NCBI GenBank assembly: GCA_025464975.1
Contig: JAODMT010000024.1
Span: 124,001-188,000 of the forward strand
Direction: 5' to 3'
DNA from: Microbacteriaceae bacterium
Lineage (GTDB): Bacteria; Actinomycetota; Actinomycetes; Actinomycetales; Microbacteriaceae
Length of the DNA stretch: 64,000 nt
How positions within the stretch are numbered: position 1 is the first letter of the stretch; each line of letters opens with the position of its first letter. Positions 5,057 through 14,650 of this stretch are shown here, piece by piece. The notes beneath the pieces were generated by a model. It was not told the DNA's origin. It saw only the letters and a list, made by a program, of their open reading frames with translations, and made no database searches. Position numbers and translations under genes: made by a program.

Positions 5057-5098
5057 TTATCCGCGAACGAACTGTTCATCCGACCAATGGAGGCTGCG

Positions 5099-5872
5099 GT
5101 GGCGATCAACGCGAATAAAGCGAAAGCCGTCGAACCGGAATCCGCCGACGAGCGGTACCGTCCCGGCTACGAACTCGTTGCGGAACGCCTCCTGCAGTAC
5201 ATCGCCGAGGAGAACCTCAAACCTGGCGACCGGTTACCCACCGAACAGGGGCTCGCCGATATCCTCGAGGCCACTCGCAATGTCACTCGCGAAGCAGTAA
5301 AGGTGCTCGCCGCCATCGGGCGCCTGAGCGTCCGCAAGGGCGCCGGCATCTTCGTGGCGTCAGCCAGCAGCTCGCTCGCAGATGAGGAACTCGCGCACTT
5401 CCAGCCCACCGACATGGAGCAGGTGCTGATGCTGCTCGATTACCGTCGGCTGATCGAGACCGACACGGCGCGCCTCGCGGCGACGATGGCCACACCAATT
5501 CAAGTGCGTGCCATCCGCGAGGCGGCCGAAGAGTCGGCCTCCGCTGGCATCGACGGTCGGATCGAAGCGTTTGCCGCGGCGGACGCCCGGTTCCACGATG
5601 CCGTTGGGATCGCCGCACGCAACGTCTTCCTGCAGTCGACCGTCGCGAACATCCGCCGTTTCGCCGCGCAGACCGACGTGCTGCTGTTCCACGGAGACGT
5701 TCCCGGCTCCCTCGAAGACGCGGGCCGCCAGCACGTCGCCATCGCCGAGGCCATCGCCGCCGGCGACACCGACTTGGCCACCCGGCTCATGACCGAACAC
5801 ATCGACACGACCCAACACCAATTCGAGCGCAAGATCCGCGACCGAATCTTCACACTCACGACGCGCGGCTGA
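5099..5872 (+). CDS. FadR/GntR-family transcriptional regulator (FCD domain)
   Basis: 257 residues from GTG 5099. That start is chosen because GGAGG lies 5 nt upstream, whereas the ORF-track ATG at 5087 has no ribosome site and itself forms part of that Shine-Dalgarno. The N-terminal GntR winged helix spans about residues 20-85 (PGDRLPTEQGLADILEATRN region) and a helical FCD ligand-binding domain follows (about 105-245) with the metal/ligand His residues in ADARFHDAVG and RQHVAIAEAI. FCD regulators commonly bind sugar acids or other carboxylates, which suits the dehydratase downstream. Likely repressor of this sugar locus. Confidence 0.88.
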   Translation: MAINANKAKAVEPESADERYRPGYELVAERLLQYIAEENLKPGDRLPTEQGLADILEATRNVTREAVKVLAAIGRLSVRKGAGIFVASASSSLADEELAHFQPTDMEQVLMLLDYRRLIETDTARLAATMATPIQVRAIREAAEESASAGIDGRIEAFAAADARFHDAVGIAARNVFLQSTVANIRRFAAQTDVLLFHGDVPGSLEDAGRQHVAIAEAIAAGDTDLATRLMTEHIDTTQHQFERKIRDRIFTLTTRG

Positions 5873-5914: not shown

Positions 5915-8900
5915 ATGCTGAACCTCCTGCGATACCCCCATGCCTCGGCACGCTCGGCGACGATCGTCGCCAGCGTCGCGCTAACCGTGACGGCGCTGCT
6001 CGTGCCGGCCGCCGCGAACGCCGCACCTGCCGTGTCCGCCGCCAAACCGCAAGCAATCTCGGTGTACGTTGCCCCGAGCGGCAGCGGCCCGCAGGCCGGC
6101 ACGGAAAAGCATCCGTATCGATCCCTCGAGGGCGCTCGCGATGCCGCACGCAAGATCAGCAAGAACGCGAAGTCTGACATCAACGTCGTGCTCGCCGACG
6201 GCACCTACACCGTCGACAGCACCTTCACGCTGACTAGCCAGGACTCCGGCCAAAACGGCCACACAGTCACCTACGAGGCGGCTCCGGGAGCACATCCGGT
6301 GATCAGCGGCGGTCAGTCGGTCACCGGCTGGACGGTCTCGGATGCTTCCAAAGGCATCTACGAGACGCACGTCGGCGACCTGAACACCCGTCAGCTCTAC
6401 GTGAATGGAGAGCTGGAGACCCGGGCACGCAGTGGAAACAACCCCGCCGGTTTCACGAAGACGGCGACCGGGTACACGATCACCGACACGAGCCTCGACG
6501 CGTACAAGAACCAGACCAACATGGAAGTGGTGAGCCGCTGGGGCTGGATGCTCGACCGCTGCCCGGTGCAGTCGATCGTTGGCAACACCATGACAATTCA
6601 GCAGCCGTGCTGGAACAACGCGAACTTGCACGCGGGTGAAGAGATTCAAAACCCCGCCTGGCTCGAGAACGCCTACGAACTCCTCGACACCCCGGGTGAG
6701 TGGTACCTCGACCAGGCCGCGGGCGACCTGTACTACATGCCAAAGACCGGCCAGAACCTCGCCACCGCCACGGTCACCGTGCCGAAGGTGCAGGATCTCG
6801 TGGACCTCAACGGAACGATCGACAACCCGGTGAGCAACGTTTCGTTCGCGGGAATCACCTTCTCCTATTCGACGTGGCTCGCTCCCAGCTCCTCGGACGG
6901 CATCATCGAGGGCCAGGCCGGATTCCGAATCGTCGGAAGCAACAACCCCACCTTTGACTCCACCCGCATGAACTGGCAGAAGACCCCGGGCGCCGTGAAC
7001 GTGAGCTACGGGCACAACGTCTCGTTCAGCGGCAACCGCTTCACGAATCTCGGCGCGGTCGGCTTGAACCTCAACACCGGCACCCAGGGCACGACCATCG
7101 TCGGCAACGTCTTCACCGGCATCGCGGCGACCGGCATCCAAATCGGTGGCAGTGACGTGATCGACCACCACCCGAGCGATCCGCGTTCCATACTCAAGAA
7201 CACGCTGGTCAGCAACAACGTGGTCACCAACGTCGCTGACCTCTACACCGGCTCGGTCGGCATCCTGGCGACCTACACCGACCACACGACCATCGAGCAC
7301 AACAAGGTCTACAACCTGCCGTACAGCGGAATCTCGGTTGGTTGGGGCTGGGGCCTGACCGATCAGGGCGGCGACTACAACTACCCGGGAAATTCCGGGG
7401 TTACGGTCTATTCCACCCCCACCACGAGCACGAACGCAGTCGTGAGCGACAACGTCATCAGCGACATCATGAAGCTGCAGGCCGACGGCGGCGCGATCTA
7501 CACGCTCAGCGCCAGCCCGAACAGCGTGATATCGGGCAACCTCATCACCAACGTTCCGCCGCCGGCATATGGCGCGATCTACCAGGACGAGGGCAGCCGC
7601 TACTGGCAGCTCACCCAGAACGCGTTCTGCAACATCTCCTACCAGTGGCTGCTGATGAACCACGGCATGGACAACGTCGCGAGCCGCAATTACACGACAA
7701 ACCCGAACTACTCCACCCAGTTCAACAGCACCAACGACACCATCGCGAACAACACCACCGTGGCGAGCTGCGACCAGCTGCCGGCCAGCATCGTGAAGAA
7801 CGCGGGGCTGCAGCCGGCGTACCAACACCTCGACCCGAACCCGGCGCCGAGCGATACGGTCGCCCCGACCGCTCCGGGCAAGCCGTCGGCAGCCATGAGC
7901 TTCCCGACCACGGCAGAGCTCAGCTGGCCGGCGTCCACCGACAACGTCGGCGTTACCGGCTACTCGGTGTTCGCCAACGGCGCGCTAGTGAGCGCGAGCA
8001 AGGATCCGAGCGTGCGCGTCACCGGGCTCACCGCCAACACCGCGTATACCTTCGCCGTGACGGCGCGGGATGCTGCCGGCAACGAGTCGAACGCAAGCCC
8101 GGCGCTCACCGTGACCACGCCGGCCGGGGGCGACCTCGCGCTGAACCAGCCGGTGACCGCCTCGTCGTTCTCGGAGCAGAACTTTGCGAAGAACGCAGTC
8201 GACGGTGACCTCTCCACCCGCTGGGCGCAGGGCCTCGGCCTGCCCGACCCGTCATGGGTGCAGGTTGACCTAGGCAAGGCCTACGACATCTCCGGGGCGA
8301 TCACCACCTTCGAGAAGGCGAGCGGCTACAAGTACAAGATCGAGGCCTCCACCGACGAACTGCACTGGACCACCGTCGAGGACCACACCGGCTCCAACAC
8401 CACGGAGGCAACGAACTACTCGGTGCCGTCCGCACCGGTCACCGGTCGCTTCGTGCGGCTGACGCTCACCGGCACCAGCGGCAACGGTGGCAGCGTTTAC
8501 GAGCTCGAGGTCTACGGCCAGCCGGCAGCGGCGAGCGGAGACACCCAGGCCCCTTCGACCCCGGCAAAGCCGACGGTGGATGCCCTTCTGCCGAGCCTCG
8601 TCAACATCAGCTGGCCAGCATCCACCGACAACGTGGGTGTGTCCGGATACGCCGTGTACGACGGCACAACGCGGGTGGCCCTCACCGAGATCACGAGCGT
8701 TCGCCTGAGCGGACTCACTCCCGGATCAACCCACAGTTACACGGTGGTCGCCCGGGATGCGGTGCTCAACGAGTCCGCGGCAAGCCCCGCGTCTGTGGTC
8801 ACGATGCCCGCCGACAACGACCTCGCCAAGGGCAAGTCCGTCACGGTCTCTTCCTACTCCAACCCGAACACTCCGGCCATGGCCGTGGACGGCGACCTGT

Positions 8901-9226
8901 CCACCCGCTGGGCGCAGGGCCTCGGTCTGCCCGACCCATCGTGGGTCCAGGTGGACCTCGGCGCGGTGACCAGCATCAACAGCGTGGCCACCACGTTCGA
9001 ACTGCCCTCCGGCTACGAGTACCTGCTCGAGTACTCGACCGACGGAATCACCTGGTCATCGCTCGACAACCACACGGCGAGCAGAACCACCGACCGCACG
9101 AACTACTCGTTCTTGCAGCAGCCCGTCGATGCCCGTTACGTGCGTCTCACCGTGACCAACTCCAACGGGAACGGCGGCAGCATCTACGAGCTCCAGGTCT
9201 ACGGCGGATTCTCGGCCGCATCCTGA
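5915..9226 (+). CDS. secreted right-handed beta-helix carbohydrate-active protein with two FN3-F5/8C pairs
   Basis: 1103 residues. A Sec signal peptide (VASVALTVTALLVPAAANA, cleavage near residue 36) is followed by SVYVAPSGSGPQAGTEKHPY and a GTYTVDSTFTLTSQDSG block typical of beta-helix glycosidases and lyases (GH141-like proteins among them). The parallel beta-helix runs to about residue 640, with repeated 'NxxVSNNxVxN'-like turns. Then come FN3 (648-735), F5/8C discoidin (738-868), FN3 (878-964) and F5/8C (968-1101). F5/8C modules often bind galactose or fucose in glycans. No sortase signal or membrane anchor. Probably the extracellular enzyme that releases the sugar imported by the genes downstream. 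The precise activity is not determinable; alpha-L-fucosidase or a lyase are options. Confidence 0.85.
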   Translation: MLNLLRYPHASARSATIVASVALTVTALLVPAAANAAPAVSAAKPQAISVYVAPSGSGPQAGTEKHPYRSLEGARDAARKISKNAKSDINVVLADGTYTVDSTFTLTSQDSGQNGHTVTYEAAPGAHPVISGGQSVTGWTVSDASKGIYETHVGDLNTRQLYVNGELETRARSGNNPAGFTKTATGYTITDTSLDAYKNQTNMEVVSRWGWMLDRCPVQSIVGNTMTIQQPCWNNANLHAGEEIQNPAWLENAYELLDTPGEWYLDQAAGDLYYMPKTGQNLATATVTVPKVQDLVDLNGTIDNPVSNVSFAGITFSYSTWLAPSSSDGIIEGQAGFRIVGSNNPTFDSTRMNWQKTPGAVNVSYGHNVSFSGNRFTNLGAVGLNLNTGTQGTTIVGNVFTGIAATGIQIGGSDVIDHHPSDPRSILKNTLVSNNVVTNVADLYTGSVGILATYTDHTTIEHNKVYNLPYSGISVGWGWGLTDQGGDYNYPGNSGVTVYSTPTTSTNAVVSDNVISDIMKLQADGGAIYTLSASPNSVISGNLITNVPPPAYGAIYQDEGSRYWQLTQNAFCNISYQWLLMNHGMDNVASRNYTTNPNYSTQFNSTNDTIANNTTVASCDQLPASIVKNAGLQPAYQHLDPNPAPSDTVAPTAPGKPSAAMSFPTTAELSWPASTDNVGVTGYSVFANGALVSASKDPSVRVTGLTANTAYTFAVTARDAAGNESNASPALTVTTPAGGDLALNQPVTASSFSEQNFAKNAVDGDLSTRWAQGLGLPDPSWVQVDLGKAYDISGAITTFEKASGYKYKIEASTDELHWTTVEDHTGSNTTEATNYSVPSAPVTGRFVRLTLTGTSGNGGSVYELEVYGQPAAASGDTQAPSTPAKPTVDALLPSLVNISWPASTDNVGVSGYAVYDGTTRVALTEITSVRLSGLTPGSTHSYTVVARDAVLNESAASPASVVTMPADNDLAKGKSVTVSSYSNPNTPAMAVDGDLSTRWAQGLGLPDPSWVQVDLGAVTSINSVATTFELPSGYEYLLEYSTDGITWSSLDNHTASRTTDRTNYSFLQQPVDARYVRLTVTNSNGNGGSIYELQVYGGFSAAS

Positions 9227-9257: not shown

Positions 9258-10355
9258 ATGAAGATCACCCACGTCGAATCCATCCGGGTTCATGTTCCCG
9301 CAGCCAACCCGCCGTTCAGGTGGAGGGAAGGCTTGGCCGGGAGTGCGCCAGCCGGCGATGGAGCAGTGCTGCGGATCGGTACGGACGAGGGAGCCGAAGG
9401 CATTGCGTTCTTCTCCCGTCCCGGTGCCGCCGTAATGCTCGACGACCTTGTCGAGCGAGTGTTCCGGCCCGAGCTGGTTGGCCAGGACCCGCTGCAGCGG
9501 GAATGGCTGTGGCATCGGATGTGGGAACTCGACCGCATCCACGAGTTGCCGCTGCCGACGCTCGGACTGGTGGACATCGCCCTGTGGGACCTCGCCGGAC
9601 GGATGAACGACCAGCCGACCTGGCAGGTTCTCGGCGGCTACCGCACGTCAATTCCCGCGTACGCCTCCACCTCCACCTTTGGCTCCATCGAGGAGTTCCT
9701 CGACGTGGCCGACCAGTGCTTGGCGCTCGGCTACCACGGAATCAAGCTGCACGCGTGGGGTGACGCTCGGCGCGACGCCGAGCTCTCAGTGGCGCTGCGC
9801 GAGCATGTGGGGGATGCCGTTCCGCTGATGTACGACGGGTCGGCCGGGTTCGACCTGCCCGACGCCATCTACCTCGGGCGGGTACTCAGCGACGCGAACT
9901 ACCTGTGGTACGAGGAGCCGATGCGGGAGTTCAGCATCAGCGCTTACGCGCGACTGGCTCGCGCCGTGGACGTGCCGCTTTTGGTGGCGGAGACGTCGGA
10001 TGGCGCGCACATGAACTCCGCCGACTTCATTACGTCCGGAGCCGCGACCTTCGGCGTGCGTGCCGGCACCACCCTGCGCGGCGGCATCACCGGGGCCATG
10101 CGTACGGCCCACTTGGCGGATGCCTACCGCTTGCGCGCCGAGGTGCACGGCTCCGACATCCCGAACCATCACCTTTGCATGGCGATCTCGAACACCACCT
10201 ACTACGAGTCGCTCATCACTTCCTCCACAGTCACGCGCGAACGATACGTCGACGAGAACGGCCTCGTGCACGCGCCAACGGAACCGGGAATCGCTCTGCC
10301 AGCCGGCCTCGACTATCCCGCCGTGCTCCGCCCGTACATCGGGGAGGCAGCCTAG
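9258..10355 (+). CDS. mandelate racemase/muconate lactonizing enzyme family sugar-acid dehydratase
   Basis: 365 residues, enolase superfamily. Metal ligands Asp193 (MYDGSAGFD), Glu219 (WYEEPM) and Glu245 (LVAETSDG) are each 26 residues apart, the superfamily spacing. Catalytic candidates are Lys163 and His165 (IKLHAWG) and His297 (EVHGSD). Members dehydrate aldonates such as L-fuconate, L-rhamnonate or galactonate to 2-keto-3-deoxy acids. KxH rather than KxK at the second strand places it outside the classical fuconate dehydratases, so substrate is inferred only from the fucose/rhamnose-type neighbours. It starts 31 nt after the beta-helix gene with AAAGAAAGCAG ahead of the ATG and is likely in the same operon. 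Confidence 0.85.
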   Translation: MKITHVESIRVHVPAANPPFRWREGLAGSAPAGDGAVLRIGTDEGAEGIAFFSRPGAAVMLDDLVERVFRPELVGQDPLQREWLWHRMWELDRIHELPLPTLGLVDIALWDLAGRMNDQPTWQVLGGYRTSIPAYASTSTFGSIEEFLDVADQCLALGYHGIKLHAWGDARRDAELSVALREHVGDAVPLMYDGSAGFDLPDAIYLGRVLSDANYLWYEEPMREFSISAYARLARAVDVPLLVAETSDGAHMNSADFITSGAATFGVRAGTTLRGGITGAMRTAHLADAYRLRAEVHGSDIPNHHLCMAISNTTYYESLITSSTVTRERYVDENGLVHAPTEPGIALPAGLDYPAVLRPYIGEAA

Positions 10356-10434: not shown

Positions 10435-11799
10435 ATGAAGTCGCCCCTCCTCACCAGTCGCCGCAAGGCGACCGGGGCCCTAGCCCTCGTCACCGTGGGC
10501 CTGCTCGCAGCCCTCACCGGTTGTGCGAGTGCCGCCTCGACCGGTGGTAGCACCAGTGCTACTGCCTTCAAGCCGGTCACCCAGAGCGCCTCATCCGAGA
10601 TCACGGTCTGGGCCGACTCGACCCGCTTGCCGGCGGTCCAGGCCTACCAGAAGTCGCACCCGAACGTGAAGATGAACATCGTCACGTACGACGGCAGCGC
10701 CGACGGCTCCACCTATCTGCAGACCAAGGTGCAGCTCTTCGATCGCACCGGCAAGGGCTGGCCTGACCTGGTGTTCGCCTCGCCGACCGACGTGACCTGG
10801 GCATCGCAGCCCACCAGCAAGGGTGCCGTTCCGTTTGCCGCGCCCCTCGACAGCGGCAAACTCGTGCCGCAGGCCACGCTTGACAACTTCGCCAAGGGAT
10901 CGCTCTCGGCCTGCCAGTTCAACGGCAACACCTACTGCCTGCGCAACGACATCGCCCAGGTGGTGCTCTGGTACAACAAGACCCTCATGGACCAGTGGGG
11001 TTACACCGTTCCCACCACGTGGGAGCAGTACGAGGCCCTTGGCCAGAAGGTCGCAACGGAGCACCCGGGATACCTCGTCGGCGCCGTCGGCGACACGAAC
11101 TCGCAGGAGTCCTACTTCTGGTCGAGCCAGTGCCCCGCGCAGCAGCTTCAGAAGGATGGCTCGCTTCAGGTCAATCTGCAGGCCAAGGACTGCACCCGGA
11201 TGGCGTCGCTGCTCGACACGCTGATCAGCGCCAAGTCGGTTAGCACCCAGGGCTTCTTCACCCAGGGCTTCGACGGCAGCAAGGTTCTCATGGCCAATGG
11301 ACCGTCGTGGTACGGCCAGTACCTGTTCAACTCGGCATTCAAGACGCCGGCTGGACAGATCGCCGCGGCCAACCCGCTGACCTGGGCCGGCGAGTCCACC
11401 GCGGCCACCGGAAATGTCGGTGGCGGTGTCTGGATGGTGTCGTCGCACAGCAAGAACCTGAAGGCGGCAACCGCCGTAGCCACGTGGCTCACCACCTCGG
11501 ACGCCAACCTCACCAACGCTCCGACCTACCCGGCGTACTCTCCGGGCGCGAAGTCGTGGCTGGCGAACCCGGCCAACAAGGACTACTTCGCCACCGACAT
11601 CAGCGGCCCGTTCCAGAAGGCTGCCGACGAGGTGTGGACCGGATGGTCGAACACCAAGTTCAGCGACGCGACCGCGTGGTCGAGCGTGGTGCTTCCGGGC
11701 CTGACCGCCGGCAAGTCGCTGACGGATCTGCTCCCCGCCTGGCAGACCGCCATTGTCAATGAAGCGAAATCGGTTGGATACACGGTCACCACAAAATGA
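10435..11799 (+). CDS. sugar ABC transporter substrate-binding lipoprotein
   Basis: 454 residues from ATG 10435, preceded by AGAAAGG. The ORF-track start 375 nt earlier is a shadow of the dehydratase. A lipoprotein signal ends in the lipobox LTGC (Cys about 29), then a Ser/Thr/Gly linker and a family 1 extracellular solute-binding fold (ITVWADSTRLPAVQAYQKSHP). Conserved blocks include PDLVFASPTDVTW and a NKTLMDQWGYTVPTTWEQYE segment. The lipoprotein would be membrane-tethered and deliver a mono- or oligosaccharide to the two permeases that follow with an ATGA overlap. Confidence 0.92.
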   Translation: MKSPLLTSRRKATGALALVTVGLLAALTGCASAASTGGSTSATAFKPVTQSASSEITVWADSTRLPAVQAYQKSHPNVKMNIVTYDGSADGSTYLQTKVQLFDRTGKGWPDLVFASPTDVTWASQPTSKGAVPFAAPLDSGKLVPQATLDNFAKGSLSACQFNGNTYCLRNDIAQVVLWYNKTLMDQWGYTVPTTWEQYEALGQKVATEHPGYLVGAVGDTNSQESYFWSSQCPAQQLQKDGSLQVNLQAKDCTRMASLLDTLISAKSVSTQGFFTQGFDGSKVLMANGPSWYGQYLFNSAFKTPAGQIAAANPLTWAGESTAATGNVGGGVWMVSSHSKNLKAATAVATWLTTSDANLTNAPTYPAYSPGAKSWLANPANKDYFATDISGPFQKAADEVWTGWSNTKFSDATAWSSVVLPGLTAGKSLTDLLPAWQTAIVNEAKSVGYTVTTK

Positions 11800-12734
11800 C
11801 AATTGTTGAACCCGAGCGCGTAACAGCGCTCACCACCAAGCTGGCTCGTCGTCGCGGGATTCCGCGGCGCCGGGCCGGCCTGGCCGGGTACCTATTCGTC
11901 TCCGGATACACAATTCTTCTCCTCGTCTTCGGCATCATCCCGACGGGGTATGCGGTCTACCTCGCCTTCACGAACGACCAGGGCCAGTTCACGGGTCTCA
12001 ACCAATTCATCAAGGTGGCCCAGGACTATCGGTTCGGGCCTGCGTTCGTGAACATCTTCATCTACCTGGTGATGTGGCTCGTTCTCGTGATCGTGCTCAC
12101 GACGCTTGTCGCCGTCATCCTGCGAGCACGGATGAAGCCGGGCCTTGCGGCCGTGTTCCGCTTCCTCTACTACATCCCCGGCGCACTGGCCGGTGTCGCC
12201 AGTGTGCTCGTCTGGCTCTTCATGCTCGACCCGGCCGTGAGCCCCGCGTCTGGGCTGTTGCGTGCGCTCGGCTTCGACAACTTCTCCCAAGTGCTCGCGC
12301 CGGAGAACCTGCCGGTCATTCTCGTGCTCATCGCGTTCTGGACCGGAGCGGGTGGCTGGATCGTCGTCATGTATGGCGCGCTCAACAACATCCCCGAAGA
12401 GGTGCTTGAAGCGGCGCGGATGGACGGTGCCGGTCCGTGGCAGTCGGCGTGGCACATCCAGATTCCGATGATCCGCAAGTGGATCGTGTACCAGTCCATC
12501 CTGGCCTTCGCCGCGGGCACCCAGCTCTTCGTCGAGCCGCAGCTTCTCCAAACGGCGAGCCTCGGCCGGGTCAGCCCGACCTGGGCGCCCAACCAGCTGG
12601 CGTACGTATTCGCGTTCCAGCACGGCGACTTCAACGGCGCAGCCGCCCTCTCCATATTCCTGCTCGCTCTCGGCCTGATCGTCGCCACCATCCTGGTGAC
12701 CCGCTCGGGCTTGTTCAAAGTGGACGACGAATGA
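11796..12734 (+). CDS. sugar ABC transporter permease (MalF-like)
   Basis: 312 residues with six predicted membrane helices after a 30-residue basic N-terminus. The EAA loop that contacts the ATPase reads NNIPEEVLEAARMDGAGPWQSAWHI, matching the EAA--G consensus of carbohydrate uptake (CUT1) permeases. Starts at the ATGA overlap with the binding protein and ends in an ATGA overlap with the second permease. It would form the inner-membrane channel with the next protein. Confidence 0.92.
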   Translation: MTIVEPERVTALTTKLARRRGIPRRRAGLAGYLFVSGYTILLLVFGIIPTGYAVYLAFTNDQGQFTGLNQFIKVAQDYRFGPAFVNIFIYLVMWLVLVIVLTTLVAVILRARMKPGLAAVFRFLYYIPGALAGVASVLVWLFMLDPAVSPASGLLRALGFDNFSQVLAPENLPVILVLIAFWTGAGGWIVVMYGALNNIPEEVLEAARMDGAGPWQSAWHIQIPMIRKWIVYQSILAFAAGTQLFVEPQLLQTASLGRVSPTWAPNQLAYVFAFQHGDFNGAAALSIFLLALGLIVATILVTRSGLFKVDDE

Positions 12735-13648
12735 CCTCCTCAACTCTCGCCGCCGGGCGCGCGCAAGCCCCCGGCCGACGCGTCTCCCGTTTCGTATCCA
12801 TCGGGATCGTGGTGCTGATCCTCGTCCTGCTGATTGTGTTCTTCGTGCTGCCGGTGATCTGGCTGCTGCTCGCGCCGACCAAGACGGCCGGCCAGCTCGT
12901 TTCCCAGTTCCCGCTCTCGTTCGGCTCGTTTTCGCAGGTCGGCCAGGCCTGGCAGCACCTCGTGTCATTCCAGGGCGGCGTCATCTTCGTATGGCTGAAG
13001 AACTCGGCGATCTACTCGGTCGGCTCGCTGATTCTCACCCTGCTCACGAGCGTGACAGCCGGCTACGCGCTCGCGCTCACCAAGTTCCGGGGACGCAAGC
13101 TGCTGTTGACGGTAACCCTCGTGGTCATGATCATGCCCTCGGCCGCGCTTGTGCTGCCGACCTTTCTCGAGCTCAACTGGTTCCACCTGATCGGAACGGT
13201 GTGGTCGATCATCCTGCCGTTCTCCTTCTTCCCGTTCGGCGTATATCTCGTGTACATCTACTTTGCGACGAGCCTGCCGCGCGACCTGCTTTCGGCCGCC
13301 CGGATCGACGGGTGCAACGAATGGCAGGTGTTCTGGCGCATCGCCATGCCGCTCGCCAAGCCGGTCGTGGGGTTGATCGCGTTCTTCAGCTTCGTGAACA
13401 ACTGGAACAACTTCTTCTTGCCTTACCTGGTGCTTCCGAGCAGCGACCAGTTTCCCATCCAGGTCGGCCTGAACCAGCTGCTCTCCTCGACGCCGTCATT
13501 CAACCCGGTCGCGGGCAAGGGGCTCAACATCACAAGCCCGGAACTGGCGCTGGCGATTATCATCGCGATCCTGCCCGTGCTCATCGTGTTTCTCTTCTCC
13601 CAGCGCGCGCTAGTGTCCGGCATGCTGGCCGGAGCAACCAAGGAGTAG
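12731..13648 (+). CDS. sugar ABC transporter permease (MalG-like)
   Basis: 305 residues from the ATG overlapping the previous stop; the ORF track begins earlier in a shadow frame. About six membrane helices and an EAA loop LPRDLLSAARIDGCNEWQVFWRI. Partner of the preceding permease. There is no ATP-binding gene in this operon, so a shared MsiK/UgpC-type ATPase elsewhere in the genome must energise the importer, as is common in actinobacteria. Confidence 0.92.
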   Translation: MTSSTLAAGRAQAPGRRVSRFVSIGIVVLILVLLIVFFVLPVIWLLLAPTKTAGQLVSQFPLSFGSFSQVGQAWQHLVSFQGGVIFVWLKNSAIYSVGSLILTLLTSVTAGYALALTKFRGRKLLLTVTLVVMIMPSAALVLPTFLELNWFHLIGTVWSIILPFSFFPFGVYLVYIYFATSLPRDLLSAARIDGCNEWQVFWRIAMPLAKPVVGLIAFFSFVNNWNNFFLPYLVLPSSDQFPIQVGLNQLLSSTPSFNPVAGKGLNITSPELALAIIIAILPVLIVFLFSQRALVSGMLAGATKE

Positions 13649-13651
13649 CCG

Positions 13652-14650
13652 ATGCTCGTCGCCGACGCTCATCATCACCTGCGGGATCCGGCCGCTCGTC
13701 GGCCGCTCGGCCGCGCCGGCCTCGAGGTCGGCCCGGTTTCCTATGGGGCGGCGGCGTTGGGAAACCTCGCCGGACGAATAAGCGACGAGAGCGCCGAGCA
13801 GATTGTTGAGGAGGCCTGGGCCGGGGGAGTGCGCTACTTCGATGTTGCCCCGCACTATGGCCTCGGGCTCGCGGAGACCCGGCTTGGACGTGCGCTCGCA
13901 CACCGACCGCGAGACGAGTTCATCGTCTCCACGAAGGTCGGGCGGCTGCTGGTTGAGAACCCGGCCGGGCAGCAGCCCGACGACGGTGGATTCGACGTGA
14001 CATCGGCGCTGATCAGGCATCCCGACTACAGCCGGGATGGCGTTCTACGATCCATCGAGGACAGCCTCAACCGCCTGGGCCTCGACCGGCTCGATATTGT
14101 CCTCGTGCACGACCCGGACGACCACTACAACGAGGCTCTCGATGGCGCGTTCCCCGCGCTCGAGCAGCTGCGATCCGAGGGGGTCATCAGCTCCTATGGA
14201 GCCGGCATGAACCAGTCGGCGATGCTCGCGAGTTTTGTCGAGGAGACCGACCTTGACATCGTGATGTGCGCGGGCCGGTACACCCTCCTCGACCAGGGGG
14301 CGCTGGCCGACCTCATCCCGGCGGCTGCCGCTCGTGGCGTGTCGGTTGTCGCCGCCGCGGTGTTCAACTCCGGCATCCTCGCATGCGACCCACCGCGGGC
14401 CGACTCGAGCTACAACTACGGGATGCCGCCCGGCGAGATTGTCGCGCGCGCGCAAGCGATGGCGGACGTGTGCCACGAGTACGACGTGCCGTTGCCGGCC
14501 GCGGCGCTGCAGTTTCCGTTGGAGCAAGCGGTCGTGTCGACTGTGTGCGTCGGGGCGCGCTCGCCAGAGCAGCTGGCAGCGAACCTGCTGAACGCCTCGG
14601 CCGCGATCCCCCCGGAGCTTTGGAACACCCTGGACGCGCTCGAGAGGTGA
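13652..14650 (+). CDS. aldo/keto reductase, L-fucose/D-threo-aldose dehydrogenase-like, with amidohydrolase-like N-terminus
   Basis: 332 residues. From residue 17 (RRPLGRAGLEVGPVSYGAAA) it is a complete aldo/keto reductase: catalytic tetrad candidates are Asp in YFDVAPHYG, Tyr in the same block, Lys in VSTKVGR and His in IVLVHDPDDH. The subfamily resembles L-fucose / D-threo-aldose 1-dehydrogenase, which oxidises the aldose at C1. Residues 1-16 (MLVADAHHHLRDPAAR) do not belong to that fold and instead match the beginning of COG3618 amidohydrolases (sugar lactonases), including their metal-binding HxH. The ATG is 3 nt after the permease stop. The simplest reading is a deletion that fused a lactonase start to the reductase. 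An assembly artefact cannot be excluded. Confidence 0.85.
   Translation: MLVADAHHHLRDPAARRPLGRAGLEVGPVSYGAAALGNLAGRISDESAEQIVEEAWAGGVRYFDVAPHYGLGLAETRLGRALAHRPRDEFIVSTKVGRLLVENPAGQQPDDGGFDVTSALIRHPDYSRDGVLRSIEDSLNRLGLDRLDIVLVHDPDDHYNEALDGAFPALEQLRSEGVISSYGAGMNQSAMLASFVEETDLDIVMCAGRYTLLDQGALADLIPAAAARGVSVVAAAVFNSGILACDPPRADSSYNYGMPPGEIVARAQAMADVCHEYDVPLPAAALQFPLEQAVVSTVCVGARSPEQLAANLLNASAAIPPELWNTLDALER

Follow-up and report, generated by a model that had tools for sequence, protein, structure and literature searches.

The window, by which we mean the whole stretch of 64,000 nucleotides that was analysed, comes from an actinobacterium of the family Microbacteriaceae and contains on its forward strand a cluster that leads up to a reading frame joining parts of two gene families. 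The cluster includes a GH141-type beta-helix protein with F5/8 and fn3 domains (5915-9226; Pfam GH141_M, Beta_helix and F5_F8_type_C), which is probably secreted and possibly a glycosidase feeding the cluster. It is followed by an enolase-superfamily sugar-acid dehydratase-like protein (MR_MLE, 9258-10355; PF13378, E 2.3e-36), an ABC sugar-binding protein (10435-11799) and two ABC sugar permeases (permease 1, 11796-12734, Pfam BPD_transp_1; permease 2, 12731-13648). A GntR/FCD regulator (5087-5872) precedes the GH141-type protein. Compared to a locus of Compostimonas suwonensis (L009), the dehydratase-like protein is 83%, the binding protein 71% and permease 2 79% identical, and the closest permease 2 relatives, L146 and L147, reach 89%.

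Directly downstream of permease 2 lies an open reading frame of 332 amino acids (13652-14650, forward strand) that starts with MLVADAHHHLRDPAAR and runs gaplessly into a complete aldo/keto reductase (AKR). The AKR part (13700-14650; PF00248, E 1.1e-43) is covered by Pfam Aldo_ket_red at residues 29-331, so that the first-pass annotation rightly described the N-terminal piece as running straight into a full reductase. Its barrel coverage and the Asp-Tyr-Lys-His tetrad (D64, Y69, K95 and H153, all invariant in 49 homologues) place it in the AKR family. Its best relatives among solved structures carry the name L-galactose dehydrogenase, and these relatives together with the neighbouring genes point to a probable L-fucose (L-galactose-type) aldose 1-dehydrogenase. 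An AlphaFold2 model of the fusion has a mean pLDDT of 94.6 with most of the barrel at 95 or more, while residues 1-10 have a mean of 51 and the first strand is found at residues 17-19; the predicted product is an intact barrel with a floppy tail, and an active dehydrogenase carrying this tail would be the expected outcome. Pairwise comparison with the L009 AKR by codon position gave 52, 40 and 136 differences at first, second and third positions of 316 codons, a pattern that fits purifying selection on the AKR body, although the periods preceding and following the fusion are pooled in it.

The opening residues of the frame, MLVADAHHHLRDPAARRPLGRAGLEVGPVSYG..., were previously read as the N-terminus of a COG3618 amidohydrolase complete with the metal-binding HxH. 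To score this we built a profile of 17 columns from 58 distinct COG3618 N-termini taken from the loci fetched here. Codons 1-17 (MLVADAHHHLRDPAARR, 13652-13702) reach 25.2 bits, which confirms that reading. This stub ranks first among the 98,407 stop-free 17-mers of the window, where the runner-up has 16.0 bits, and none of 200,000 shuffles reached its score. When 2.8 million 17-mers from the other loci were scored, values as high were limited to COG3618-type N-termini. Within the family (minimum 24.9, median 37.2) the stub stands near the bottom, mainly because two columns are off consensus: it carries the N-terminal motif [V/I]D[A/S]HxHxWDP with an Ala at -1 and an Arg in place of the Trp (HLRDP versus HLWDP). 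This Trp is kept in all 58 members, and relaxed constraint after the fusion would explain its change. HxH, DP and Arg are correctly placed, and the match holds on the DNA level too. A genuine lactonase, L062, has the nearest N-terminal peptide, MTVIDAHHHLWDPAARRYSF, so that lactonase-like sequence extends through codon 17. A low-threshold tblastn search with the Compostimonas lactonase picked out the stub as its top hit in the neighbourhood of the locus (63% over 19 positions, E 0.009); around and downstream of the AKR it gave no lactonase C-terminus and no other credible lactonase fragment. The Amidohydro_2 barrel of about 280 residues is absent from the frame, for which Pfam reports Aldo_ket_red only; with 17 of these residues and no barrel, the stub cannot be a functional lactonase.

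The ATG of the fusion lies 3 nt past the stop codon of permease 2, and a Shine-Dalgarno sequence, AAGGAG, is found within the last permease codons, 6 nt before this ATG (13640-13645). After codon 1, no ATG, GTG or TTG occurs before codon 36, which already lies inside the barrel. Given the lack of another start before the barrel and the upstream AAGGAG, the reductase is translated from the start of the lactonase. One might go further and suppose that the stub was kept since the lactonase start offers a better, permease-coupled translation site, so that selection for expression would have favoured a fusion that was more than just tolerated; we regard this as unlikely.

In some relatives of the AKR both parent genes stand side by side. 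The closest AKR found is that of C. suwonensis (76% identity), and in a tree of 94 AKRs it is the sister of the window AKR with 99% SH-aLRT support. The gene order at L009 is dehydratase, binding protein, permease, permease, FAH hydrolase, SDR, COG3618 lactonase, AKR and esterase, and the lactonase stop overlaps the GTG start of the AKR. The L009 lactonase is a full-length match to the NCBIfam L-fucono-1,5-lactonase, though below the model cut-off, and also matches PDB 4dlf. A COG3618 gene immediately upstream of the AKR, on the same strand and in the same order, occurs at 15 of the 94 AKR loci, namely L009, L012 and L095, the latter two from the 14-row clade of the window AKR, and 12 further loci. 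The proposal that fuconolactonase and fucose dehydrogenase genes are natural neighbours is thereby supported, including the case of the sister AKR. In Sinomonas gamaensis (L042:7040-7923) the COG3618 gene directly upstream of the AKR seems frameshifted, with two overlapping pieces that lie in different frames; this may be a further lactonase in decay beside such an AKR, or a sequencing error. As a further observation on the tree, the AKR of a contig titled Vibrio cholerae strain 35D (L080) groups with the Sinomonas AKR (99%), and it looks as if the record title is wrong or the contig foreign.

The picture is less uniform if the position after the permease is regarded. The synteny comparison suggested by the first-pass annotation did yield a lactonase between permease and AKR, in L009 and in L152, a relative of the window operon with the order permease, COG3618, AKR; beyond these two the order after the permease varies widely. 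It is SDR then AKR in L148 and L017, AKR alone in L149 and L150, and nothing recognisable in L146 and L147. In L146, L147 and L151 none of the queried catabolic genes directly follows permease 2, which indicates that this operon slot is unusually labile. The order permease, lactonase, AKR is therefore plausible as a predecessor, having been seen once (L152), and the exact ancestral gene order of the window is a reconstruction. L009 has two additional genes (FAH and SDR) between permease and lactonase, and their absence in the window may be a separate event. Among the genomes compared no undeleted version at the same operon position with high identity was found. Neither the AKR matches from 13 genomes of the genus and 400 of the family nor a genome-contig scan gave a second case of the fusion, and none of the AKRs with E <= 1e-110 among the 400 family genomes carries it.

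The junction itself can be followed on the DNA level. Codons 3-14 share 30 of 36 nt with the L009 lactonase. On the left of position 13700, agreement with the sequence preceding the L009 AKR is limited to 8 of 45 nt, and on the right 49 of 60 nt agree with the L009 AKR itself. The similarity thus switches from lactonase to AKR at codon 17, at shared CGT/CGG (Arg-Arg) codons (13691-13702), in agreement with the earlier suggestion of a join at shared 'RRP' codons. The switch implies the loss of about 800 nt; the distance in L009 gives about 803 nt, and the exact size here may differ. The join is spanned by a near-repeat with a period of 11 nt, CGGCCGCTCG-T-CGGCCGCTCG (13689-13709), whose copies are in different reading phases, and a few junction bases could stem from local duplication. 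We considered and rejected recombination between the two copies of the 10-nt repeat CGGCCGCTCG, as a simple exchange would break the frame and leave one copy instead of two. The longest exact repeat between the lactonase and AKR gene starts in L009 is 7 nt; a relative at this distance does not allow the precise breakpoints or the extent of the shared sequence to be read off. A search of the literature on bacterial gene fusions by microhomology returned nothing usable.

We consider the following course of events well supported and highly probable. In the ancestor a complete COG3618 lactonase would have stood directly upstream of an AKR-type aldose dehydrogenase, in a cluster that also comprised the GH141-type enzyme, the sugar-acid dehydratase and the sugar ABC transporter. 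From this arrangement some 800 nt would have been deleted, with the ends meeting at Arg codons of both genes; all of the lactonase after codon 17 and the start codon of the AKR would have gone. As the frame was kept, the AKR would since be translated from the lactonase ATG with the ribosome site in the last permease codons. Its N-terminus would be a flexible tail of roughly 16 residues, and it should still be an active dehydrogenase.

Other origins of the composite frame have to be weighed against this deletion. The fusion is known from one assembly, and the join is GC-rich and contains the 10-nt near-repeat, which would suit a collapsed or chimeric assembly in which some 800 nt were skipped and the lactonase is in reality complete. 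A graph assembler, however, would make such a join across a shared stretch exceeding its k-mer length, and the gene starts in L009 share at most 7 nt; frame, start codon and ribosome site are all preserved at the join, which lies within a contig of 638 kb. Moreover the lactonase body is found nowhere else in the assembly, and the Trp-to-Arg change in the stub suggests an old event, so that an artefact appears very improbable. Still less credence is due to a natural N-terminal extension of the AKR that resembles COG3618 by chance or convergence. Such extensions exist in some AKRs, and the MIMADRIHHHPMEARRPLGR preceding the AKR of L023 aligns loosely with the stub; at 2.6 bits compared to 25.2 bits for the window it was dropped as a similar extension. 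In no other AKR that was checked does the motif occur at a plausible N-terminus, two pattern hits being located far upstream in read-through of neighbouring genes, and chance similarity would hardly place HxH, DP and Arg correctly and match on the DNA level as well. This explanation would have gained from relatives that have the extension but lack a lactonase at the locus; a search for them found none.

A different route to the same junction would be the replacement of a module, in which an AKR recombined onto a lactonase start that already followed the permease, with no deletion in a contiguous pair. The high variability among relatives downstream of the permease, where FAH-SDR-lactonase-AKR, lactonase-AKR, SDR-AKR, an AKR by itself or nothing recognisable may follow, is what such exchange might produce, and FAH and SDR are likewise missing in the window. 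The C-terminal part of the lactonase is absent downstream of the AKR, though, and since the sister AKR already has a lactonase as its direct neighbour a single deletion is simpler; we think replacement improbable. The missing lactonase remainder downstream also disfavours an insertion of the AKR into a lactonase gene.

The first-pass annotation had further assumed that the event removed the lactonase of the pathway. This does not hold for the genome (3.22 Mb, 24 contigs) and is true of the fusion locus only. One other clear COG3618 gene is present, intact and 34% identical to the L009 lactonase (C3:198827-199654); it lies outside the window, at a distance of about 61 kb from the fusion. The product of the gene preceding it has a match of about 600 bits to a solved L-fuconate dehydratase. 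FAH and SDR are present as well, with another AKR on contig C5, so that the route appears complete genome-wide if judged by families. Sugar lactones also open spontaneously. Loss of the lactonase at the fusion locus would be tolerable on both counts, the second lactonase and the spontaneous opening, and the intact second gene probably makes the deletion harmless.

Placed beside known systems, the stub shares with L-fucono-1,5-lactonase (COG3618; PDB 4dlf; PF04909; NCBIfam NF052480) the N-terminal motif, HxH and DPA.R; it differs in lacking the barrel, with 17 of about 280 residues left, and in the Arg at the family-invariant Trp. The remainder of the frame shares the full-length fold and the four active-site residues with the AKR-type L-galactose / L-fucose dehydrogenases (PDB 7ezi, 8scc; PF00248), from which the putative enzyme is set apart by a foreign N-terminus of 16 residues replacing its own start. 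With actinobacterial non-phosphorylating L-fucose-type clusters such as L009 the window has in common the order dehydratase, binding protein, two permeases, then AKR. Unlike in those clusters, the lactonase is a stub, FAH and SDR lie elsewhere, with the other AKR on C5, and L-fuconate dehydratase and the intact lactonase are found at C3:197-200 kb.

The fusion of a lactonase stub with an AKR is a new instance of an ordinary, known kind of gene loss. It illustrates that an operon can lose one enzyme and yet keep the next, as frame, start codon and ribosome site are retained. Automatic annotation would give a plain aldo/keto reductase here and overlook the former lactonase. A lactonase missing at one locus, moreover, need not break the pathway if the genome holds paralogous parts at scattered places.
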